Shown here: positions 353 to 35,924 of the stretch, piece by piece
Position numbering within the stretch: the first letter of the stretch is position 1
Layout: the number at the start of each line of letters is the position of its first letter
Assembly: GCA_027604505.1 (NCBI GenBank)
Contig: JADIIX010000074.1
Coordinates: forward strand, 1 to 64,000
From: Gonapodya sp. JEL0774
Lineage: Eukaryota; Monoblepharomycota; Monoblepharidomycetes; Monoblepharidales; Gonapodyaceae
Length of the DNA: 64,000 nucleotides
Reading direction: 5' to 3'
Notes under the pieces: generated by a model
Database searches by the model: none
What the model was told of the DNA's origin: nothing
Seen by the model: only the letters and a program-made list of their open reading frames with translations
Position numbers and translations under genes: made by a program

Positions 353-653
353 GCCGAGGAGGTGCGACGTAGAGGGTGGGGATGGGGTGGGGGGCGAAAC
401 AGAAAGGGCAGGCAGGGTATGGGTGTGGTGTGCCTGGATCGGTTCTTGATCATTGGTGTTGAGATCATTGTGATGTACTAGTGAGTGACTATTCTTTGAA
501 TAGGGTAACGTTCACACGGGATAGTTGCATTGGCATGTATCGCACTCTGTATTCCCACTTCTAAGACCATTGAGTATTGTATGCAATGTGAGCGTGCATT
601 ATTACCACAAAAGCACGGTGCATTAACAGCACTATTCTCCCCACCACCTCCCG
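353..653. other. Intergenic gap between convergent genes
   Basis: Roughly 300 bases lie between the stop of the ECD homologue and the stop of the minus-strand transporter. I see no convincing gene, repeat or RNA here; it is presumably two facing 3' UTRs. Confidence 0.6.
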
Positions 654-3532
654 TCACACCTCTATGTCCTCGTCTACCGTCTTGGTGAGATCCGCGATCG
701 CCTCCTTCTTGAGGGGTTTGTGCCGTATAAACACCGCAAAGATGATCCCCAGCCCGACGATGGGTACACACACGATAAACGACCAATGCAGACCCTGCAC
801 GTTGGCGTGGATGTAGGCGGCGTTAAGCGAGGCCAGGGCGTCCACGGGGATGGACGAGATGTCCACGCGGGTGGACGAGTAGGCGGATTTGAGGAAGGCA
901 GCGTAGAGCTGGATTCGAAAAGGCGAGTGCAAAAGTGAATGGTAAGATGGGTATTGCGGGACGTGTAATGGGCTCCATCGACGAACCTGGATTTGGTCAG
1001 CACTCAGCTGAAACTGGATGGCACTCTTCGTCAAGCCATCCTGCAGCTGGGAGCTCAGAATGTTCGAGAACAGAGTGGAGAATACGGCGATTCCGATAAC
1101 GCTGGAGTGAGAGTGCGACCCGATCTTGAGTGATCTGAACCATTGCACGAAGCAGAAAGTGCACGAGCTTACGTACCCTCCAAGAAGACGGGAGAAGTTA
1201 GCGACAGTGCTGCTTGGGCCAATGAGCTGGCGAGTGTACAGGATCGTTCCTTGAGTCACACGATTTTGTCTTGTCTACATGGCTCGGCTCACCTTTGCAG
1301 GTGAGTTAATTTGCGCTGTCAGTTGTCCAGCGTTGACGATCAGACCCACACCACCGCCTATAGATTGAGGTGTCAACAGAATGACTCGGTTATGTTCATT
1401 CCCACAGTGTTTCGCAGAGGATTCCTTCAAGGAGATCGCACCCTCGAACACACGAGCAACCTACCAGCAAGAATCTGTGCGAATACCTCGATGGGCGTAC
1501 CCGAGTTTTCTTCCCACATGGAGAGCAGCCCAAGTCCGACAATAATAAGGACTAACCCGATGCTGGGAATGAAGTGGTAGTACCCTGTTTTGGTCGTGTA
1601 CAGTCCACAACCGATGGAAAAAACGATCAAGGCACACCTTCATAACGAGGAAAGTTTGCAAAGTCTATATGAGCGATTGCAGCGTCCCGCGGAAACAGAA
1701 CTGTACCCACGTGAGTGACATGTTATTGAGACCACTGTCGGTGGCGGACAATCCCCGAACAGTTTGGAAGTAAACCTAAAACAATTTCAACTACTGAGCA
1801 CGAAGTATGACATCCGACGCTGACAATAAGGAGGGCTCTCACGGGAATAAAGTAGGATAGGGCGTACATTGCCCAGCCAGCTGGAGAACAACCATCCAGG
1901 AGCATGAGCGGGGAGCTCAGATACACTCGCTTCGCGACACTAGCAACTCACAAAAGAAGAGAGACATGTTTGCAGCGACGTAATTCCAACTCTTAAAGAG
2001 CTCGAGAGGGATGATGGGCTCCACCGCTTTGGTTTCCCACCACACAAACATGGCCAAGAGTACGATCGCGCATACGATGCAACCAAGAACCTGACCACTC
2101 GCCCACGAGTACTCGACGCCTCCCCATGAAAGTGCCAAGAGCAACAGCGTCATTGCGATGGTAAGTAGCGACAAACCAAGGTAATCAACACGCTTGATCT
2201 GATCCCGCAGTGAACCACGAGGGGGAGGCAACGTCAAGCCAAAAACGCAGCCCAAAAGAGCAACGGCGCCGATGGGGAGGCAAATGTAGAATCCCCATCG
2301 CCAGTTGAGGTAATCGTTGAGAAGTCCACCAATGAGAGGCTTTCAACAGGTGCAGGTGGTGAGAGGTTGTATTCTCTCAGCACGATGAGCAACACACTCA
2401 CACCGACTGCTGCAGCTAAACCACTCAATGCACCCATCAACCCCATGTACTTTCCCATTTCCGCTTGTGGAACTTAAATTTCAAGATCTATGAGCGAGGG
2501 AAGCCACGACCAGGTCCTTTCAAACAACCACCACGTACCGATTTCTCCAATAACAACAAATGCCATAGAAATGATTGCCCCACCACCGATTCCTTGCATG
2601 ACTCTGCCAACAATTAACATGACCATGGATGTGGACACCCCACACACAGCAGTGAATATAAGAAACTCGACGACAGAAATTAGGATTATGTTCTTGCGCC
2701 CAAAAATGTCGGAGAGGGAGCCCCAGGCGGGGGCAAGGGCTGTGCCTGTCAAAGAAAGTGAAAATTGTGGACGCGGAATAACCATAGGTTTCTGTTTTCT
2801 TACTCGTTAGAAGATAGCCTGTTCCGACCCAAGAGTAGTTGGATTCTCCGTTTAGGTCTCGCGAAATGGTGGGAAGCATTGTCGCTAAAAACAAGGCAGC
2901 AACAGTAAGCGAATCGATGCAAATGCGCGAGTGACCGGCAACAGCATCTACAATGTTACACACCAACAAGTGTGGAGCTAAGGCTTGACAAAATCTGCAG
3001 AGCAGGTGAAGAGAGGTGACTGAGTGGTTGCACGGGCTTGTGATCACTGGGAAGGGGAGCCTACCACTAAATGTTTGGGAAATTGAGAGAGTAGAGGGGC
3101 CCAGGAAACGCATTAATGTCCAAAGTAGGGTAATCTCTCGGAATCCAATGGTCTCTAGCGTGTTGTTGGTCTAACTCCGAGCTGTCACAGCCAAACAATC
3201 CGCACACGCCTTATCAAAGTTGAACCGAATCGTCCGCATCACACCGAAATACCAAGCAAATCGAAAAACTTCGAGCGAGCCAATTCTCTTCCGCACCCCG
3301 TTTCGTGTGCCCCCCAGCAGTTCCTATTGCGACCATTTTGACACTTACGAGCAAGACTCATAGAGACGACAGAGATAGAGATTGCATTGTTGTTCCGCTT
3401 TGCTTTTCCCGGAGTTGTTTCGTTTATCTGCTTCTTGCCATTGAGACTTGCATCTGCATGATCTGGGTTGATGGGGAGCTCTCCGAGTATTTCCGCGGTG
3501 CCTGGAGCCACCACGCCTTTTTCGTCACCCAT
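654..3532 (-). CDS. Major facilitator superfamily drug transporter, DHA2 (14-TM) type
   Basis: Plasma-membrane or vacuolar proton antiporter of the DHA2 multidrug class, split by many introns. Exon 1 (3349-3532) starts with ATG and encodes a hydrophilic N-terminus ending at a GTAAGT donor. Joining the exon just above 2950 to the one below 2905 gives LSSLSSTLVATMLPTISRDL, the TM1/motif D1 region of DHA2 carriers, followed by SWVGTGYLLT. Further on are PAWGSLSDIFGRKNII (motif A, loop 2-3), GRVMQGIGGGAII (TM4, motif B/C-like), the late-helix exon LLALSWGGVEYSW, then NFSRLLGG and GIAVFSTLFSNIL near the end. The tail is short and charged. The usual Asp of motif D1 (LDxTIV) is Ser here. Substrate cannot be predicted. 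Confidence 0.88.
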
Positions 3533-23323: not shown

Positions 23324-26300
23324 ATGGACGATTCCTCGGAAAGTTCTTTCGAGTCATTCCGTGAAGACAGCATTAGTGGGGACAGCTCACATGCGGATTT
23401 GCTCCAGCAACTCTGGCCCGATTCTTCAGAGAACTTACCGATTCCTTCCCATCAACGCTCTCCAATTGTTTCCCAGCATCGACTTGCTGACGTGAGCGCC
23501 GAACCTGCCAACCTTGAAGACGAAGAGCACAATAAGGCTCTCGCGAGCCTCATGTTTGGTTCTCCCGATGAATCATTCGAGTCGCCACAAAAAGAGAACG
23601 CAAACTCTCGCGCCGCGGTGGAGAACATCGACCCGCGATCGAGTGTTGAATATCTTCTTCACGCTAAGGTTAACGTCCCCAAGTCCGCCGAAACTCACGG
23701 CGTGGCATCACCAGGGACTCACATAGAGTTCTCAAACGTTCCATCATCGTCGTCGAAGTTGGAATCCACGGGAGTTCCTGGAATGTATGCTGTCGTTGCG
23801 CCTTCGTCGAAAGTGGAAATTACCAAAAATGTGTCCTCCCAACAACCTGGACGCTCGAATATTTTGACAACTTCTACGAGCTCGGGAACAGAGCTCGAGT
23901 CTGTACTGCAGACTACCAGCGCTTTGCTCAAACGTCTCAACCTCGGTCCTCCACAAGAACCAACATCTGTGTCAACTCCAATCTCACATCAGCACACACT
24001 CGCAAGACCCATGTCATCCCAGGACTACCTTGCCAGCAAGAATCTTGACGCACGACTATTTGCCCCTCGAGAAGCCCCAAAATCCTCGAAAACCATTCGG
24101 GCGCGAAGGGAACTCCCAGCACCACCGGCTACTCGATTTTCTCCGACGTACCGACAACCAACAACCTCCCAACCACTTAGCGGGGCTGTCGCAGTTCCTG
24201 ATCTTCTCACGACTGCACCCCAACCAAGAAGTCCGTCCAAACCTTCTCGGCAGGATCCAGCTTTGTTTGGCGACAGAGGGCGGCAACAGACAGTGGAGCC
24301 TTCGAATACGGTAGTCGAACCAACCACATTCGCTACACCACCTGCTGTTATTGGGCAATCTCTCACCACCCAAATTGTCGACCCCACTGCTTCCAAGCTA
24401 CACCGGAAACACACATCGGAGTTTGCTCGAACCTTTGGGAACAGCCATCCTCCCTCCACAATCGCCAGAATGCCAGGCGCATATCCCAGCTCTGATTCTT
24501 CAACATCGTTTGCACTGCCCTCTCACAATAACGACCGTCCACAAACAAAATTTCTCCATTTGAGCTTTTCCGTCTCGGGAGTTGCTGGTGGTTCAAGTTC
24601 GAGATACCCTAGTGCGAATGCCTCAACAGAATTTGAGGATATCGAAGGTGACTTGGGCGGAGTAGTCCTACCCTATGGCGTAAGCGACCACATGACCAAG
24701 GAAGACGCATCAAAAACTATCAAGAGCCTGTTCGCCGCTGTCCTTCAATCAGATCAAGCGGCAGCCAAATCAGAAGATTATATGAAACCGGAAGATTTGA
24801 CAGTTGACTTGCTGCCACATCAAATTACAGGGGTGCAATGGATGGCTGGTGCGTGGAACATTGTGAACAAGGTCCAAATCTTCCTCTCAGTCGTTGGGTT
24901 CTCCATTAGCACTGGAGAAAGCTAAACACAGAGGTGGAATACTTGCTGGTAAGTTTTGCGTCAATTGGCCATTCGGTGTTCAGTTACTGTGAACCCCCTC
25001 CCTCAGACGTGAGCATCTTCAACTTTATTTTGCATCAAACTGCTGTCTCAATCGTGCTGGCTCTCTGTCACAATTGATAAACGATACATCAACCTTAGGA
25101 TATGGGCTTAGGTGAGCGTCCGGTAGTGCATTGGCGTGTTTTTGCTCCGCTGCTTGCTTTTTGACATTTCGTAATTACCGAAAACTCAGGGAAAACTGTT
25201 CAATCCATCGCCCTTATTCTCACCAACCGACCTCCACTATCGGGTCCTCGAGCAACACTAGTCGTGGGTAAGGTCACAACTAAGTGTCGATGAGTATCCC
25301 GTCTGTCTCACTTAAGGCTTGAAAACAGCACCGGTCAGTCTTATATCTCAGTGGAAGGATGAGATCAAATCCAAGACGTTGTTGGGTGCGCTTAGAGTGA
25401 TGATTCACCACGGACCCGGGAGGACAAAAGATGTTCGGAAGTTTTCGGGCATGGATGTCATCCTGACAGTGAGCATATTCATTTCTCGCTGATTTGCATC
25501 TCGACGATTTCACTCACCTTTTTGCATAGTCATACTCAACGTTACAGCAAGAGTGCCCTTCAGCAAGGAAGAGTAAAAAGAGTGCGGATGTTAAGAAGCC
25601 AGAAAAGCCCCCCGGACCGTTACTGCTGATGAGATACTACAGAGTTATTCTAGGTGAGATGGCTGCTTTTGCGAACATTCGATGACCTTGCGGGAGCTCA
25701 TGTAAGTGGCGTCACAGACGAAGCACATAACATCAAGAACAAAGATACGGCGACTGCGAAGGCATGTTTTGAGCTCGAGGCGGAACATAGGTGGTGCCTG
25801 ACAGGGTAAGCTGCTAAAACCCCGTGCGCGTATGAACACAATATGCTCACAGTTCTATCTAGGACACCAATCCAGAACTCAGTGGACGACTTTTACAGCC
25901 TGTTAAAGTTTCTGCAGTTTAAACCATACGACGAGCACGCTTATTTCAAGCACTATATCACCTACTGGCTTACGAAAGGAAAAGGAGTTACAGCTATCAA
26001 GAGGCTCCAAGTGATAAGTATGTCTTTGAACAACCATTTCATCCTATGAACTTCAGACCTTGATCATACCCTATCCCTCCATTTCAGTAAAAGCCATTGT
26101 TATGCGTCGCACGAAGGCAGTCATCGACTTAAAACTGCCAAAAAAGACGATCCATCACGTTTTGTGTGACTTCACTCCTGTGGAAAGGTGAGGGAACATG
26201 TAAGATTCAAAGTGTTGGCGGTTGCTTCACCCTCCTCATGGCAGAGCGCTCTACAATGAGCACGAAGCGACAGCCAAAGCCAAAGTGACCGAAATGGTGG

Positions 26301-27598
26301 AAGAAGCTGGATTAGACAAGAATGTCAACACAATATCGGCATTAAACATTCTCTTGAAGTTGCGACAAAGTGAGTAATCTCTCGTGCATTGAATGTCACC
26401 CTCTCCTTTACGATTATGGACACGTTTCCCAGTATGCAATCATATGAAGCTCATCGGTGCCACTGACCTTGATACCATTGAAAGAGAGAATGAAGATGAT
26501 ACTGACGAGATGGACGATCTTGCCGCTGCGTTAAACAATATGAGCGTTGGCACCAAATGCAAATTCTGCTTTGACCCGTGAGTACCAGAAAAGATGTGGC
26601 ATGTGGCAGTCTGTTGAACAAGGAACAACAACTATGATGTTCTCAAACTGCTCTCCGAAGTCTCCCTCTGGGTGAAAATAGCCCATGTGCACGCTGTAGA
26701 AGCGTCCTCGTAAAATCTAACGGCAGCAACAACAAAGAAGACGCCAGAGAAACCACTCCGCGGAGCAGCGCCAAAGTTAACAAGGTCATTGAGATCATCA
26801 ATGACATCCGCCGAGCGAACCCAAGGGCTAAGACTATAGTATTCTCTCAATTTGTTAAGTAAGTCCGCGAAGACTCCCCGTGAAGACTCCGAACCTTTTT
26901 GTGGTTCTCAAATGTGTCGGGTAGGATGATTGACTTGTTGGAAGACCCGTTGAGGGCGAATGGGACGAATTTTCTCCGCTGTGAGCAAGATTGCAAAACC
27001 TCTCTTCCCGTCCTTACCATAAATAATTCCTGTTCCATAGACCAAGGTTCAATGAATGAAAAGAACCGATCGGAGGTTTTGAACAAGTTCAAAACAGATT
27101 CCCGCTGTACTGTCCTCTTGGCATCTCTAAAGTGTGCAAGCCTAGGACTCAACCTCACAGTTGCAAGCAACGTTATTCTTTTCGATCCTTGGTGGAACCC
27201 TGCGGTGAGTCATGTTGGTTTATGATCCCCTTCTCAGAGGTTGATCATGTGACATGTTTAGGTAGAGAACCAAGCGAGTGAGTCACAGAGTCTGAACACT
27301 AATATCTCGCTACGAGTAGACAGTTTATTTTTCATCCAATTTAGTGGATCGATCTCATCGGCTCGGTCAAACCAAGCCCGTCAACGTGTACAAGATCACC
27401 ATACGAGATACTGTGGAGGACCGCATATTGGAGATGCAAGCCCGGAAAGCCGCACTGGCAGATGGTGCTCTCGGAGAAGGCGAATACAATAACAAGAGCA
27501 AGGCAAAGTTGACTCTCGAGGAGATTGCATATATATTCTCCGTGGACGGAGTAATGGACGACGATCCTTCTCGGGGCAAGGGAAAGAGGAAAATCTGA
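23324..27598 (+). CDS. SNF2-family DNA translocase, Uls1/Ris1-like
   Basis: Nuclear ATP-dependent DNA translocase. The N-terminal 480 residues are Ser/Pro-rich and disordered. The ATPase follows in many small exons: LLPHQITGVQWMA + ALEKAKHRGGILADDMGLGK (motif I), VAPVSLISQWKDEIKSK (Ia), TDEAHNIKNKDTATAKA (motif II, DEAH), RWCLTGTPIQNSVDDFYSLL (III), VMRRTKAVIDLKLPKKT, TIVFSQFVKMIDLLEDPL (IV), VLLASLKCASLGLNLTVASN (V) and DRSHRLGQTKPVNVYKI (VI). Inserted between the two lobes is a compact zinc knuckle, CKFCFDPPCARCRS (C-x2-C-x4-C-x2-C), where Rad5/Rad16/Uls1 relatives carry a RING. That insertion, plus the DEAH box, argues for the Rad5/16-Uls1 branch; Uls1 is a SUMO-targeted factor. Exons assigned by eye near motif I are 23324-24848, 24910-24948, 25007-25008, 25099-25111 and 25190 onward; near motif VI there is a 16-nt exon at 27262-27277, and the next exon starts at 27345. 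Confidence 0.88.
25007..25008 (+). other. Candidate 2-nt microexon (AC) in SNF2 Walker A
   Basis: The sequence reads CCCTCAG|AC|GTGAGC, an acceptor and a donor two bases apart. Exon 24910-24948 ends GCT G before GTAAGT; the next exon after the following acceptor is GATATGGGCTTAG (25099-25111), and the exon after that begins GGAAAACT (25190). Joining G+AC+GATATGGGCTTAG+GGAAAACT gives GAC GAT ATG GGC TTA GGG AAA ACT (DDMGLGKT), the exact SNF2 motif I. Leaving AC out breaks the frame. Confidence 0.75.
25099..25111 (+). other. 13-nt microexon in SNF2 motif I
   Basis: Bounded by CCTTAG and GTGAGC, it supplies codons for D-M-G-L and the first base of the next Gly. It is flanked by introns of 90 nt (25009-25098) and 78 nt (25112-25189). 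Confidence 0.8.
27262..27277 (+). other. 16-nt microexon in SNF2 motif VI
   Basis: Between GTTTAG and GTGAGT. It joins NPA (exon ending 27204) to DRSHRLGQ (exon starting 27345), giving NPAVENQAMDRSHRLGQ in frame. Confidence 0.75.
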
Positions 27599-27719: not shown

Positions 27720-29677
27720 ATGCCACGAATACCCACTACTTTTATCAAGGCGCTAGAGTTCTTCTGCGGAATCGGCGGCTTGCATTACAGCTTTGAGTTT
27801 TCGAGGGTACCAGGAGAAGTTCTCGCTGGTGCGAGTGAATCTCCCCGTTTTTCTCTCCAACCATCTCCAACCACCAAACACACCCAGCTTTTGACATCTC
27901 TCCTCAGACGAATGAATGGTGTGTGATTTTGCTTGGAGGCCGCGCATCTTCTCCTGGCATCCTAACGTTGCGACGACTGTCGGCAACTGAGCAGCTATGA
28001 GTTCAACTTCGGGATTGAGCCAATTCAAGTGGGAATCGATCATCTCACGGTGGAAGCGATTGAAAAGTACGAAGCGAATGCATGGTTTTTGAGCCCTCCA
28101 TGTCAACCCTACGTCCGTGGTGAGCCTTTTGATTGAATATTCTCCAACTTCTTTCCGCCCGTATTGTCTAAACTTCGTTGCACCAAGGTGGAAAGCACCG
28201 AGATGACCAGGATCCTCGCGCTCGTGGTCTCATCAATCTCATAGATATCTTACCGAAGCTACGGGACCCACCATCCTTCCTCTTCCTGGAGAATGTGTTC
28301 ATGTTCGAGCAAAGCAAGTCGCGGGCACTCCTTGTGGACGCACTCGACCTCATGGGTTATGATGTGGCGGAATTTATGGTGTCATCTATGCAGTTTGGAG
28401 TTCCCAACGATCGGCAAAGATACTACCTGATTGTGAGTCCGAGTTTCTTCCCCTATAAAGGCACCTTCCTTCAGCTCAGCTCTTACCGAACAGGCCAGAC
28501 TGCCTGCGGATGGTACTCGGTGTCCGCGTCCGCGTGGTGGTGTGCCTTACCTTGAAAATTTTCGACTGTTTACGTCCTGGCCCCCACCTCCTGCACCACA
28601 AAACATCCCTGCAACTCACTTTCGACAGAAAGAGTCGATTCAAGTGACTCCTGTGCCGGAGGGAGAGCCAACTGGTGATGAGGTAGTGCAATCAACACGT
28701 AATGCAGACATCACATTGAAGGACGACCACGTTGCCCTGGAGAATAGTGCACCCGGACGGATGTTTTGTGCGCTTAAACTCGGCGAGTTTGACTTAACGG
28801 GTATCCCGCTCATCAAAAGCTATCTAGAAACGATGGAAATGTCAGAAACTGGTGATCCGTATATCGTCCCACCTGCTTATTTGCTCAAGAGACAAGGCTT
28901 CAGGTTCGGTGGGTGAACGAGGATATCACATCCTTGCTGCTTTTAATCTGAAGCTCTGATCTCACAGATATCGTTAGACCAGAAGATCGGAAGTGCAGTG
29001 CCTTCACAAAGGCGTATGGAACGAACTATGTAGTCGGAACGGGCGCATACTTGCAGACATCTGGATTTGGGGTAATGTGGAATTTATGATTTCTGAGTTT
29101 TGCAAGTTTCAATGAACAGATTCTGCATTGGCAGGCGGAAGTTGATTGGTCCCGTCCAGAAACCCTTCTCCCTCTTCGCCTTCGTTACTTCACCCCGACA
29201 GAAATCGCTCGGTTGCACCAGTTTCCTATCGACACGAGCGTTGCTCATTATCCTGCTGATGCTGATGCCTACGTGCCGTGGACTGATGAATGCTGGAAAC
29301 GAGCACGTGTGCAGAAGGACGCAATATTTCGAGAGAAACTCACGGGCAAATCTGCCAATATCCAGCAGAGAAAGAAGTTGAAAAGGACTCATTTGAAGCC
29401 AGATGGATCTCACTCAGATGCGCTTGCTGATGGTGGAAGTCCCAGTTCTGGGGAAGTTGAGGGAATGACTGAGTCCCGCGGTTGCGAACCCGCTCCCCGT
29501 CCTCTGTTCGAGAACGGCCGTGCACCTTTGCATAGGTTCGCCTTTCCGCCCACGGTAACGTTGAAGCATAGGTGGCGCGCTTTGGGCAATAGTCTGAGTG
29601 TTGTGACGGTTGGGACCCTCATGAGGGATGTGCTTTTTGACTTGGATGAAAACAGGTTCTTTGCAACTTCCCATTAG
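27720..29677 (+). CDS. Dnmt2/TRDMT1-type tRNA (cytosine-38-C5) methyltransferase
   Basis: Methylates C38 of tRNA-Asp in metazoans and fission yeast. Motif I is LEFFCGIGGLHYSFE. By joining GCTG at 27832 to an exon beginning after CACCCAG near 27889 and then to CTATGAG near 27995, the SAM-binding strand 2 region becomes EVLAAFDISPQTNECYEFNF, matching the family. Motif IV is SPPCQPYVR with the catalytic Cys, continuing over an intron to GGKHRDDQDPRARGL. Motif VI is FLFLENVFMFEQSKS; motif VIII is QFGVPNDRQRYYLI. The Dnmt2 signature region reads KCSAFTKAYGTNYVVGTGAY, so the usual Cys of the C-F-T tripeptide is Ala. Motif X is RWRALGNSLSVVTVGTLM near the C-terminus. There is no N-terminal regulatory domain, as expected for Dnmt2. 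An extra segment of about 60 residues of uncertain role precedes motif X. Confidence 0.9.
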
Positions 29678-29836: not shown

Positions 29837-31338
29837 ATGCCGGACGTGGAGAAGTACGCCAAACAGGATAAGCTCGGTGAAGGAACTTACGCAACAGTGT
29901 TTAGGGTGAGTCGTCCTTTCAGCTGATGTCGCGTACTGGACACACTCAAATGTCGCGTACTTGTCTCGGGCTTGTTCTTTTGTTACATCTGCCACGATTG
30001 GACACTTCGCATCGTCTAACACTTGGCAAATTGCTCATGCCGTCCCTATTCCGTCTGTAATCATACTAGGGCAAGAACCGTCTAACCGGTGATGTCGTTG
30101 CACTCAAAGAGATTCACCTCGACTCGGAGGAGGGTGCTCCTTCCACAGCAATTCGAGAAATCTCATTGATGAAGGAGCTTCGTCACCCAAATATTGTGCG
30201 CCTCTACGACGTCATTCACTCTGAGCGGACCCTTACTCTTGTGTTCGAGTACATGGACCAGGACCTCAAGAAGTATATGGATACGCACGGGAATGGTGGC
30301 GCTCTTGATCCCTTTCTATGCAAGCACTTCCTTTATCAAATCCTCAAAGGGATTGCTTTCTGCCATGAGAATCGGGTGCTCCACCGTGATCTCAAACCCC
30401 AAAATCTTCTCATCAACGGTCATGGAGAGTTGAAACTCGCCGATTTTGGACTGGCTAGAGCTTTTGGTATCCCCGTGAATACTTTTTCGAACGAAGTTGT
30501 GACCCTCTGGTATCGGTGAGTGCCCTGAGTCGTGTGTATTGAAATATGGTGGGAATTTAGGAGCAAACCGTCACTTAATCTCAGCGCTCCCGATGTTCTG
30601 CTTGGTTCTCGTAATTACTCCACCTCTATTGATATGTGGTCAGTCGGCTGCATTATGGCGGAGATGTACTCAGGGAAGCCCATGTTTCCAGGGAAAACAA
30701 ACGAAGACCAGCTCAACAAGATCTTCAAATTACTCGGTACCCCTAACGACAATACATGGCCGCGCGTCTCCGAATACCCCGAATTCAAAAAGAACTTCCC
30801 TTTCTATTCACCTCAACCTCTCACCGCAAAACTCCCCATGATCGATCCGACTGGCATGGACTTGTTGCAAAGCTTACTCCAGTACCAACCCCACCGCCGC
30901 ATTTCCGCAAAAGATGCCATGAATCACCCGTACTTTACAGATCTGAATCAGGCTTCGGCATTGCAGCGCAGTCTGTTTAGCATGGGAGCAGGCCCGGGAG
31001 GACATCTGACTTGCGCACAGGCAATGGCGAGCTTAGGCCTTCAGTCTGTAGCAGGCTACGTTGCAAATCCGCCTGGATACCCGCCTGGAGCTCCGCAGAT
31101 GACCATGGGTCAAGCTCCCTTGGCGATTGGGATGCCCATGCAGGGTGCGGTCATGATGCCACCTGGTGCGGTCAATATGAACATTGTTGGTGGAGCTTAT
31201 AGTGCCGTGCCTGTTGTTGCCGGACCGAGCATTTCGGCCTATCAACACCAGCACCAACCGCAGATTGGACAGCCCGCTTATACGAACGCGCAACAACCAC
31301 AGCCGCCGCCGTACCAATATTACTACTCAGTGCAATGA
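29837..31338 (+). CDS. Pho85/CDK5-like cyclin-dependent kinase with Gln/Pro-rich tail
   Basis: Three exons, 29837-29905, 30070-30515 and 30585-31338, give 422 residues with clean phases. The kinase domain is complete: GEGTYATVF (glycine loop), [10 protein letters not shown] (catalytic Lys), [15 protein letters not shown] (PSTAIRE cyclin-binding helix), [30 protein letters not shown] and [14 protein letters not shown]. The activation loop has Ser-Asn-Glu where CDK1/2 have Thr-x-Glu, which is typical of the Pho85/CDK5 class that needs no T-loop phosphorylation. Pho85 controls phosphate signalling, glycogen and cell-cycle entry with various cyclins. After the usual end of the kinase (about residue 295) the protein continues about 125 residues rich in Gly, Pro, Met and Gln (for example [20 protein letters not shown]), longer than yeast Pho85. 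Confidence 0.93.
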
Positions 31339-31423: not shown

Positions 31424-34400
31424 TCATGAGGTAGCCCTTCGTATCATTGATGCGGGCATCTCTGGCACCGTAAGTCTTCGGAATGTTTCGAAAGCACCAG
31501 ACAAGCTCTCGAGTAGGACCTCCACATCTCGAGCAGACTTGACGTAAAAGTGGGCATCAGTTGAACGTTTAGTACTTCCAGCCCTCACGGTAAAGCACTT
31601 TGATCTGTCGGGATCCCAAATGGGCCTTTGGTTGTTTTTGATTTGCTTGTGTGAGGTGGAGCGCTTCAGAGCGCTGACCTCCCCCTCCGCAAGTTTTGTT
31701 CGCGGGATACGCGTCGGCGACGGAGGAATATCGACACTTGCTCCCGTTTGAACAATCGCTGGAAGTGAGCTTGCAGGATCTCTAAGAAAGGCGAATATTG
31801 GCTCGTCAGTTCTGTCGTATGTAGAAAGTGGTACACTGTCAGACTTGAAAACCACCAGCTGTCCGCCGACCAAGTCTACACACCGATCGTAGTCATCCCC
31901 TCCACCACCTCCACATAAGATGAAGTCGAAGACCGGAGGCTTTTGTACGTTCGTGGTGGGTTTGGCAACTCCATCCAACGAAGAGAGAAATTGGTAAAGA
32001 TCTTTCAAGATGCTCCTTGCTGCCGAACCTTTGTCGACAGCAGACGGATGTATCTCGATCCGACGATTTCCTTGTTCGGATGAGAGATTATTTGGGCACT
32101 GAAACTCGCTCAAAGACATGGTGCGTGCTCACCAGTGTATATCGTCAGAGGTAAACTTAGTAACGTTTGTAATTGGGTGCATGGAGATCACACGGAGGAG
32201 CAAGCGTGACGGAGTAAATTAAGGATGATAATGCAAACTTCTGGATAAAAACACGTACCTTGAAAGCGCTTTCTCCATATGACTCAACAGTTCGCCAGCT
32301 TGCCACGACCCGAGAGTTGGGTCGGCACGACCGTAAACAAAAGCCATGTCAATCTGATAGAAAAGGTCGATTTCCTCGAGTTGATTTAATTCCATGTGAA
32401 TTGAGAACAACGCTAACCTCTTTATCCTCAACAAACGCGCCAGGGGTCCTTTCTGCATAGGCATCAAAGACGGGTCGGACGTCATCTTAAACGGCAAGTC
32501 AAACTCGATTTAAAACCACCTCCAGATGCACTGTAGACCTGCACTAACCATGCCAGTGAAGATCGACATGCTCCGCGAGTGTGATCCACTCACTCTCGCC
32601 GCTGTTTGCAATCGACGGAATAACCTTTGCGTGTGCGTCCATCTGTTGATCATCGACACTCTTTATTACGCTCGAGAACTCTGCAGGGTGTCGATAGAAG
32701 CAGCCTGCCGGGCGACATATTACTTAGAAGTGCAGGCCGCAACATTTGGAAAACATACCGTGTTCTGCAACCAGACCTACGCCAGTTGTCTGTTTAAAAA
32801 ATACTGATTAAAATCCACGAGGACCGAATCATTCAACGAATTCACCCCAAACCAGTCATGTAACTTTTGTCTGCTCCTCCCAGAGAATATGTAAACATAA
32901 GTATCCTGCAGGGAAATACAACACTGAACAACTGAAGTGGGCACAATACTAGTACGGCAAACAGTACCGGGCGTCCAGATAACCGTTCCAGGAGTTTTAA
33001 CGTTTTCACTGATGGGCGGGTGGAGTCTGATAGGGCGCTGAGAGTCTGAGCCGATGGAGCTCCCAAAATCAAATCCATCTCAAGGAAAATGACCCTTGCA
33101 TTAGCAGAGAAAATGAACCGGCTCGCCACCTCTCTGATATTCAAACGCTGGCTGTTCACTACCGTGGAATACTCGGCTGCAATTCTCTAATGACAAGAGA
33201 TATTATATGCCCCCGTTTCCATGGAGCAAACAAACAATTGCGAGCAAACACCTACCTTCAACTCGTTGATGAAACTGGTGCCCCAGAACGCGGCAGTGTA
33301 CTTGTTTACATAGCGGAGCATCTGGCGGTGCCTCACTCTACGCTCGTAGTCTGGAACCTCGAGAGCTTCTTTAATTGCCTCTGAAAGATCTTTTGTACTC
33401 CAGGGGTTGACAATAATGGCGCCATTAAGAGACTGCGCGGCGCTGTCAACATGTATAGTTCCTCAGCGTTGTTTGGTGCTTCTACGTCCATGTAAGCAAA
33501 CTTACCCAGTAAACTCTGAAAGTATCAGGACACCGGCTTTTGCAACCTGTGATGCAACGTATTCAAAAGAAACCAGGTTCAGACCGTCACTACGCGCAGA
33601 TACAGTGTATGAATGACGAGTTTGTTTTGCAAGAATGCCCGCTCCCTACCGTGTTGATGTTATGAGGCACACGTCGGAGACGGCGTAAAGAGAGACAAGC
33701 TCGGCAAATTCAACTGAGCGATGCATGAAATGAATTGGTTGATATGTAACAGTTCCTAAATGCACATGCCCACATATGCGTGCGAATTTGATGAGAAGCA
33801 CGTCGTGATCTTGTTCTATTAAAACTAACCAAATTTTCCATTGACCCGTCCAACGAGTTCATTGACTTTGCTTTGTAAAGTTGCATACTGAAGCAAGCCG
33901 AAGAATTGCCCGAACATTAAAGGAATCAGAGCAAAACTGTCTTGTAAGTACCCGTGTTTACCTCTTCGACATCCTGTCGGCTCGGAACTGCAACCTGAAC
34001 AAGCACAACTTTCTCTCTCCATTCAGGATGTCTTTCTAAAAATAGTTCGAACGCTTCGAATTTTTTCGGAACTCCTGCAATAATTGAGTAAGGGCTTGCG
34101 AGCGCACAGCATTGCACGGCCTACCTTTTATATAGTCCAAGCGATCGACACCAACGATCACCTTTAAGCCCTTGAATTGAGATGATAGTTCCTCGATCCT
34201 CATCTTGGTTGACTCCTGCTGCAGCTGATGCTCGAACCTAATGGCGGGAAGTTCTGCGATCCGCGAGGTCATATCTAATGCAAATGTGTAACATACTTTT
34301 CAGGATCTATTCCAATCGGAAACGTTCCAACCTAAATTGAACTTTGTTTTAACTTTTGGTGGAGCCATTGTAAGTGATTTCTGACTCACGCGAACCAGTC

Positions 34401-35924
34401 GCCCTTCAAATACCACCCCATTTGGCTGGGCGTGCAACCCGAGAACCCGTGTACACGCAGACAAAAAGTGCCGCGCGTAGTCGTAAGTGTGGAATCCAAG
34501 CAGATCAGATCTTTGAGGAAGCATATCCATGAGCCGAGAAATACAAAAGTTTTGTTGATTACCAAATCTTACTGAAGGACTCCGAGAAGTATCTCACGTC
34601 GAACGGGCAGGACACTGAAACTAATCTTGGGACAATGAAGATATAAAATGCAGTGATTTACACGCACCGATAAATCTCACTGGATGGAAACGGCGTATGG
34701 CAGAACCAGGAAACGGAAATCGATGGTCCTCCCCCGATGAGGCCGGTCGGCTCAGGGTTATCACTGGCTGATATCGCTGATGGATTGAAATCAGAAATAC
34801 TATCGGCAGTTTCTACAAGCATGGTGTCGAGTTTCTTGCGAAGGAGATGAGGTACAAGCATCCTGTTTGACTTGTCAGTTATATGGCAACATCAGTCTCG
34901 AGAAATGGGAACTACACACAAGTGATAATCGTGGCACTAAAAAAGAATGTTGTTATAACTTTCGAATACGGACGATAATTCATCATAGAGCACACCCAAA
35001 CAAAGTCTCCGTCCCGAACGATCCCGGCAATAACCCGCGCAAACTCATCATTCGCTCTGGACAGGCATGGACAAGAATGAGTCGGTTTCTTCTGCCATTA
35101 CGCTGAAGTCCTCTCACTTTTGGTAGCCTTCCCATGCGCTCTCATCGAACAACATCTCTCCCGGTTGATAGTGGAAAAGCGGCCAAAGAATTGAGTTGGA
35201 GAATCTGACGGCAACGAGTCAAAAAAGGGCAGACAGTTTGAACCATGTGCGCACATACCCATTGTAGTGCTGCTCCGATATGTCATCTGTTAAGTACACC
35301 GGGATCGCATTAAACCTCTCGGCCAAGTCCCTTGAGACCGCATCTGCTCGTAAGAAGGAATGAATATGAAATGCATTGGGTGTCTAAACGCCGGAAGAGG
35401 ACGCATGGTCCAGAGGTCGGACCTGCATCATTTCCAGAGAGCTCCAGTCCAGGCCAGCCAATCCAAACAAAGTCAAGCTCCTTCTTGAGGCCACTCAAGG
35501 CTGTAGAGAAGAATGATGTTAATGTGCACAGAAAAGTGGCGTGCTCACGAATCCCAATGAAAAAATACCTACCAGACACCAATCCACCCGAGCTCATGTG
35601 GTAGGACCATTCACCAGATTCAGTCTTTTTGATCGTTATCTATGAATGTTGAAAGGTGATACAGAACCCCACCAATAGTTTTGAAGTGCGACAAAGCTGC
35701 CAAACCTTACCGGAAGTCTTCAGAGAACCGTTAAATACAATTCAATCACTTTCAAACGACCAAACTGGAGCGCACCTGTTTGAAACAACAATGACTCTTC
35801 CTTCACGAGGTATCGTTGTGGCTACGGGAGGAGCTTCAACTTGCAAAGTCGGGATAACAGGTTGCTGTTCTGTCTGATCCCAAGTCGCCGAAGATTCAAT
35901 GTTTGCCGATTCTCCCAGCATCAT
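31424..35924 (-). CDS. Trehalose-6-phosphate synthase (GT20) fused to a degenerate trehalose-phosphatase domain
   Basis: Minus strand, many exons, ATG at 35924. The GT20 part carries RVIVVSNR, ESGEWSYHMSSGGLVS, LKKELDFVWIGWPGLELSG, LFHYQPGEMLFDESAWEGYQ, FARVIAGIVRDGDFVW + CHDYH + LMLVPHLLRKKL, DLLGFHTYDYARHFL, IVGVDRLDYIKGRP, WREKVVLVQVAVPSR and SDGLNLVSFEYVASQVAKAG, so UDP-glucose/G6P-binding blocks appear intact. The C-terminal half aligns with trehalose-6-phosphate phosphatase: YVYIFSGRSRQKLHDWFG, GLVAEHG, AYAERTPGAFVEDKE, ADPTLGSWQAGELLSHMEKA, RIEIHPSAVDKGSAARSI. Its HAD motif I reads VIFLEMDLILG instead of LLDYDGTL, so nucleophile Asp, Gly and Thr are replaced. This architecture fits a Tps3/Tsl1-like regulatory subunit or a synthase without phosphatase activity. 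A 17-nt exon (34920-34936) encodes CHDYH. Confidence 0.88.
34920..34936 (-). other. 17-nt microexon encoding the HDYH block of trehalose synthase
   Basis: Read on the minus strand, CTTTTTTAG precedes TGCCACGATTATCACTT and GTGTGTAG follows. Joined to TTTGTTTGG (exon ending at 34996) and GATGCTTGTACC, it reads F-V-W-C-H-D-Y-H-L-M-L-V, the conserved GT20 catalytic segment. The upstream intron is 59 nt (34937-34995). Confidence 0.78.

Follow-up and report, generated by a model that had tools for sequence, protein, structure and literature searches.

In the literature considered here, exons of one or two nucleotides are isolated curiosities. The available portions of the respective reports describe natural 1-nt exons in Arabidopsis APC11 (PMC4674806), in plant VPS55 (PMC8831610) and in Fusarium CYP621A, the last of these presented by its authors in 2026 as the first single-nucleotide exon for a fungal gene (PMC12940212). 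An artificial 2-nt exon, made by replacing the A of APC11 with TT, was spliced correctly in Arabidopsis and mis-spliced in rice, as far as the accessible text of that study tells (PMC4674806), so exons of this size are not handled well everywhere. A warning about false positives below 3 nt is given in the part of PMC8831610 at hand. According to excerpts of PMC8378409, exon definition is presumed not to work for exons as small as microexons, which would depend on intron definition instead, with PRP-40 helping where introns are long. Among the literature matches listed, neither a natural 2-nt fungal exon nor chytrid microexons appeared in titles or abstract openings, and no 2-nt exon was found in the available sections of PMC8042270 and PMC12409088. 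The most intron-dense fungus in PMC8476143 is a congener of the Gonapodya species considered here.

This species, Gonapodya sp. JEL0774, belongs to the Monoblepharomycota and has an assembly of 25.0 Mb in 381 contigs. We analysed one 64,000-nt stretch of it, referred to below as the window, in which the dinucleotide AC is very probably a constitutive 2-nt coding exon, lying between two ordinary short introns; a 13-nt exon and then a third intron come downstream.

An SNF2-family gene and the splice paths that restore its motif I

The gene concerned occupies 23324-27598 on the plus strand and is read as 17 exons and 16 GT-AG introns, giving a predicted product of 1,066 amino acids with the terminal stop as the sole stop codon. 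The closest solved structure to the product is the DNA repair protein RAD5 (6l8n). Pfam recognises the SNF2 domain (PF00176, E 6.7e-73) and the C-terminal helicase domain (PF00271, E 1.7e-22), which together with motif I identify an SNF2-family ATPase of Rad5/Rad16-like type. In Rad5 and HLTF proper, a RING domain sits between the helicase lobes and a HIRAN domain lies at the N terminus. Neither domain was found in the product by Pfam at E 0.001, and on this domain content the predicted protein would fall outside Rad5/HLTF proper. Besides the short exons at motif I, the gene has a 16-nt exon at 27262-27277 (plus strand), encoding V-E-N-Q-A and the first base of M; here VENQAMDR aligns without gaps to MEDQAIDR of RAD5 6l8n. 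The protein deposited for this contig, P0241 (533 aa), corresponds to the unspliced first open reading frame of the gene and is uninformative on how the annotators handled AC. Directly downstream, at 28000-29677 of the window on the plus strand, lies a gene that probably encodes a DNA cytosine methyltransferase, judging from motifs such as PPCQP and ENV; an 11-nt exon predicted at 27908-27918 reaches 1.8 bits and has little support. What is presumably a cyclin-dependent kinase gene resembling Pho85 follows at 30070-31338, again on the plus strand.

Motif I of the SNF2 gene is spread over four plus-strand exons. The first, of 39 nt (24910-24948), ends GCT G, that is, an Ala codon and the first base of the codon for the first Asp of the motif. 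After a 58-nt intron (24949-25006, GTAAGT...CCCTCAG) come the two nucleotides AC (25007-25008), with ...CCCCCTCCCTCAG immediately upstream and GTGAGC immediately downstream; they complete GAC, the codon for the first Asp of GGILADDMGLGKT. A 90-nt intron (25009-25098, GTGAGC...CCTTAG) leads to the 13-nt exon GATATGGGCTTAG (25099-25111), which encodes D-M-G-L and the first base of G and is itself followed by GTGAGC, the start of a 78-nt intron (25112-25189, GTGAGC...ACTCAG). The next exon, of 78 nt (25190-25267), opens GGAAAACT, where GG AAA ACT supplies G-K-T. The preliminary description of this locus had placed the boundaries from 24948 to 25190 at the same positions. AC is thus preceded by AG and followed by GT (CAG/AC/GTGAGC), and the flanking introns, at 58 and 90 nt, are of normal size for this genome, in which predicted introns span 56-179 nt from the 5th to the 95th percentile (n=486).

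The gene reads motif I (Walker A) as GGILADDMGLGKT only when AC is spliced in as an exon. Among all paths of up to three GT-AG introns of at least 30 nt in the interval 24927-25212, a single one of 249 open paths, the path through AC, gives the full motif. With at most two introns the motif is obtained from none of 48 open paths, and from none of 120 when GC donors are permitted. A second enumeration over another interval, with introns of at least 40 nt, again returned the motif from one open path, of 147. The initial proposal that the 2-nt and 13-nt exons jointly rebuild motif I is borne out by both enumerations, and so is its corollary that the frame depends on AC: skipping the dinucleotide loses the motif and brings a stop after residue 562, while retention of one or the other flanking intron brings stops after residues 535 and 544. 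From the absence of any other path to frame and motif among those tried, we infer that AC is included in the spliced transcript.

Site strength, chance and alternative readings

The AC exon was also confronted with our own gene finder, which uses coding statistics, donor and acceptor matrices and intron lengths, and has no exon-length term. Three earlier versions were discarded: the first drifted to more than 1,000 introns, the second was so strict that it returned one or two genes, and the third was circular, with the SNF2 coding sequence in its training. The valid version was trained with this coding sequence and the two introns flanking AC left out, the gene's other 14 introns and six introns of paralogues being kept. 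It recovered the exact local exons, AC included, in four of six settings. Against the AC exon, the two order-4 settings predicted no gene at the SNF2 locus. One of the four successful runs overshot into the neighbouring gene, giving 28 exons up to 31338, and a local rerun started exon 13 at 26727 or 26661, whereas the homology model starts it at 26682. When the donor after AC was disallowed, the score fell by 6.0 bits in one model and by 7.2 bits in another. The gene finder's margin for AC is therefore modest, and it is the motif that carries the weight. A search for branch sites by enriched 5-mers gave no clear motif and was left unused.

Ranked among 316 introns predicted by this gene finder, and not by curated annotation, the 58-nt intron has a donor at the 83rd and an acceptor at the 81st percentile; the 90-nt intron, with its donor at the 39th and acceptor at the 38th, counts against the AC exon. 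These average sites would suit a reading in which AC is a regulated cassette, its skipping yielding a truncated, decay-prone transcript that tunes the level of the helicase, and the premature stops described above for skipping and for intron retention would also fit such a switch. Nothing specific argues against this reading, although the first intron has a strong donor and a strong acceptor. Any mis-splicing would look like cassette skipping, and we consider regulation of this kind unlikely; constitutive inclusion of AC is our preferred reading.

Could the two sites around AC have arisen by chance? When the intervening sequence was shuffled with dinucleotide composition preserved, an AG-NN-GT arrangement with both sites equally strong appeared in none of 20,000 shuffles, while AGNNGT of any strength appeared in 8.4% of them. 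With site thresholds looser than in that test, shuffles of 63 predicted introns of 110-260 nt contained a strong 1-8-nt exon candidate in 43 of 6,300 cases, and one of exactly 2 nt in a single case (1/6,300), so strong candidates of this size seldom arise by chance. The 63 long introns themselves hide no strong 1-8-nt exon, a zero that is partly circular, given that the gene finder would itself have used such exons; it is for this reason that the shuffles were run along with an antisense control, which also gave 0 of 63.

These counts bear on the possibility that a single 150-nt intron is removed and that the gene has decayed, or that the sequence carries a two-base sequencing or assembly error. 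An intron of 150 nt lies within the predicted length range (this length is reached or exceeded by 13 of the 232 predicted introns), a point that counts against the AC exon. However, the remainder of the SNF2 gene forms one clean frame over its 1,066 codons, and a two-base error would need to have hit the splice junction itself, in an intron that by coincidence contains AC between sites of a strength that no shuffle reproduced. The same tiny-exon pattern recurs, moreover, in three further genes of the genome (see below). Error or decay is accordingly a very improbable account of the locus.

The conservation of motif I is informative as well. All 120 homologues listed, out of 7,998 matched, carry DD ahead of MG in a motif 13 residues long (108 recognised by a first pattern and the remaining 12 by inspection). 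RAD5 6l8n has DE in place of DD at unchanged length, its motif being GGILADEMGLGKT. A single non-canonical intron at 24949-25099 (GT...GG, or either of two equivalent shifts) would leave the reading frame intact and the motif largely so, but would produce GGILADMGLGKT, one residue short and with a single Asp where all 120 listed homologues have two residues; since none of its three equivalent placements combines GT with AG, we give this solution almost no credence.

In the same genome, an intron interrupts motif I in all of the SNF2 paralogues L005, L011, L013, L019, L021 and L022, at DEM/GLGKT in phase 0 in five of them and at DE/M in one. Motif I of a further paralogue, L015, is apparently interrupted too. 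The Walker A codons seem to be a favoured or ancient intron site.

How would the introns around AC be removed? The preliminary description had suggested stepwise handling with splice sites regenerated at the junction. Stepwise removal stands as the natural mechanism; regeneration finds no support in our results. With intron 25112-25189 removed beforehand and with nested introns and junction-created sites allowed, 574 ordered two-step routes were followed, and the motif came only from the AC path, in both of its orders. A stwintron or recursive splice site, in which the donor, branch site or acceptor of an outer intron is split or regenerated by an intron lying within it, is most improbable here, even though stwintrons are known from fungi, where removal in two steps shows intron-definition site pairing (PMC5639578, in the text available): no nested or junction-made route gives the motif, both introns flanking AC have complete GT and AG ends that no other intron interrupts, and the pieces removed leave between them an AC that frame and motif require, where recursive splicing retains nothing.

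For a constitutive AC exon, we favour a reading in which the 58-nt and 90-nt introns would each be recognised across the intron and removed sequentially. AC would then never need to be defined as a unit, and no splice site made at a junction would be necessary. The last three bases before the second donor (GAC, -3 to -1) and the first three after the first acceptor (ACG, +1 to +3) are identical before and after removal of the neighbouring intron, so either order of removal should work. The conflict with exon definition initially seen in so small an exon fades if splicing in this genome proceeds by intron definition, as we infer. FF-domain matches above the cut-off, three at G000:C78:45602-46496 and one at C10:254715-254852, are compatible with one or more possible genes for a PRP40-like splicing factor. 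As to origin, an intron may have been gained beside an existing one in a lineage very rich in introns, the two bases being kept in place by purifying selection on motif I.

Predicted tiny exons elsewhere in the genome

Three other genes seem to depend on exons of 1-8 nt as the SNF2 gene does. A urea active transporter gene (L032, G000:C1:1-10000, at 514-3011 on the minus strand; 93% match to HDU93_000001 of Gonapodya sp. JEL0774) has predicted exons of 8, 1 and 5 nt. The 8-nt exon (L032 2691-2698, minus) lies on the one path of 75 that gives the conserved motif, and the 1-nt exon T (1558) and the 5-nt exon CTTCG (1473-1477), both on the minus strand, lie together on one path of 164, with predicted junctions GGTTTAA-T-CTTCG-GCATCATC. 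The block that the latter two complete, G-L-I-F-G, is gapless in 119 of the 120 urea transporter homologues listed. The only gapped one is the protein deposited for this very genome; its sequence there is TDGL--SIIN, and it contains the residues of the 8-nt exon. In this protein, P0121, the residues from the 1-nt and 5-nt exons are missing, and there is a further divergence around another exon (GKKWSV... versus GPFWYASGATVQ). Automatic annotation can thus shorten conserved proteins in this lineage, skipping exons of 1 and 5 nt while including one of 8.

The second gene, for trehalose-6-phosphate synthase (window 31424-35924, minus strand; PF00982, E 1.4e-152), has 26 predicted exons, one of them of 17 nt and one of 7 nt. 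Inclusion of the latter, ACTTCCG (35711-35717, minus), gives VVSNRLPITI from one of 54 open paths, a segment aligned in the solved chains 8fhw and 5hvm; its gene-finder margin is just 1.8 bits, and its support comes from the motif. The third is an aldo/keto reductase gene with a 3-nt exon, CTG (L043 6793-6795, minus), inside FFDTAEIYG, again on one of 54 paths. The Pfam score is 219.3 bits with this exon and 206.7 without it, and FFDTAEIYG aligns gaplessly to FFDTSDIYG of perakine reductase (3uyi).

Some predictions of similar size were set aside. Five exons of 11-12 nt, whose margins lie at 0.1-1.8 bits, and a 6-nt exon in L050 (0.7 bits) were counted as unsupported, and a zero-length exon (window, minus strand, 1638; 2.9 bits) is an artefact and was left out of the counts.

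How common are such exons? We surveyed 254 kb, comprising the window and 19 stretches of 10 kb, with the gene finder retrained, the SNF2 coding sequence now among its training data. It predicted 88 genes with 432 internal exons; their 516 introns correspond to 3.51 per kb of coding sequence. Seven of the internal exons are of 1-8 nt, versus 16.5 expected (about 0.4-fold) from geometric exon lengths of the same mean, that is, from random intron placement; motif support exists for six of the seven. Exons of up to 20 nt number 21 (40.1 expected) and those of up to 50 nt number 59 (93.4 expected). Short exons are in deficit, yet there is no sharp lower bound on their length, and some selection or missed detection is likely behind the deficit. 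The assertion that exons of two nucleotides are extremely rare therefore needs a local qualifier for this genome. With the window left out, since it was chosen for the present finding, there are 5 exons of 1-8 nt among 298 (11.5 expected), four of which, from two genes, have motif support. Extrapolated to the 25-Mb genome, this would correspond to some hundreds of such exons, an order of magnitude that is based on two genes.

One interpretation of these figures is that the Gonapodya spliceosome has practically no lower limit on exon length and works by pure intron definition, near-random intron gain having left hundreds of constitutive exons of 1-10 nt. We are evenly divided between accepting and doubting so broad a proposal, for which the evidence is the 254-kb sample. 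Four sampled genes that seemingly need exons of 1, 2, 3, 5, 7 and 8 nt would provide a natural system for the question of minimum exon length, and such a genome would also serve to ask whether intron definition alone is sufficient and how introns are gained near one another.

Comparison with described ultra-small exons

Of the systems introduced above, the plant exons of APC11 (PMC4674806) and VPS55 (PMC8831610) are, in the parts of the reports we could draw on, close counterparts of AC: each is an ultra-small exon between AG and GT, essential for the frame and missed by annotation. Those exons are of 1 nt and were proven by cDNA and constructs, whereas AC measures 2 nt, belongs to a fungus and is predicted from DNA sequence. 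The short exons of Phanerochaete P450 genes, encoding 2-10 amino acids, likewise lie amid short introns in an intron-rich fungus, but the shortest given in the available text is 6 bp (PMC1184071). Stwintrons, as far as the same portion of PMC5639578 describes them, share with our locus the adjacent introns and their consecutive removal by intron definition; there, however, the external intron works only once the internal one is gone, while here each of the two introns is complete in itself, with AC kept between them.

The nearest fungal case is CYP621A of Fusarium (PMC12940212), in which, on the available account, a conserved protein motif is also rebuilt and the exon was also found through a phase mismatch. 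That case concerns an ascomycete P450 with one exon common to 20 orthologues and support from SRA reads, in contrast to several unrelated genes in one genome of chytrid lineage, read from genomic sequence. Ultra-small exons as such are already known; the newer part of what AC brings to light would be a putative population of them in a single genome.
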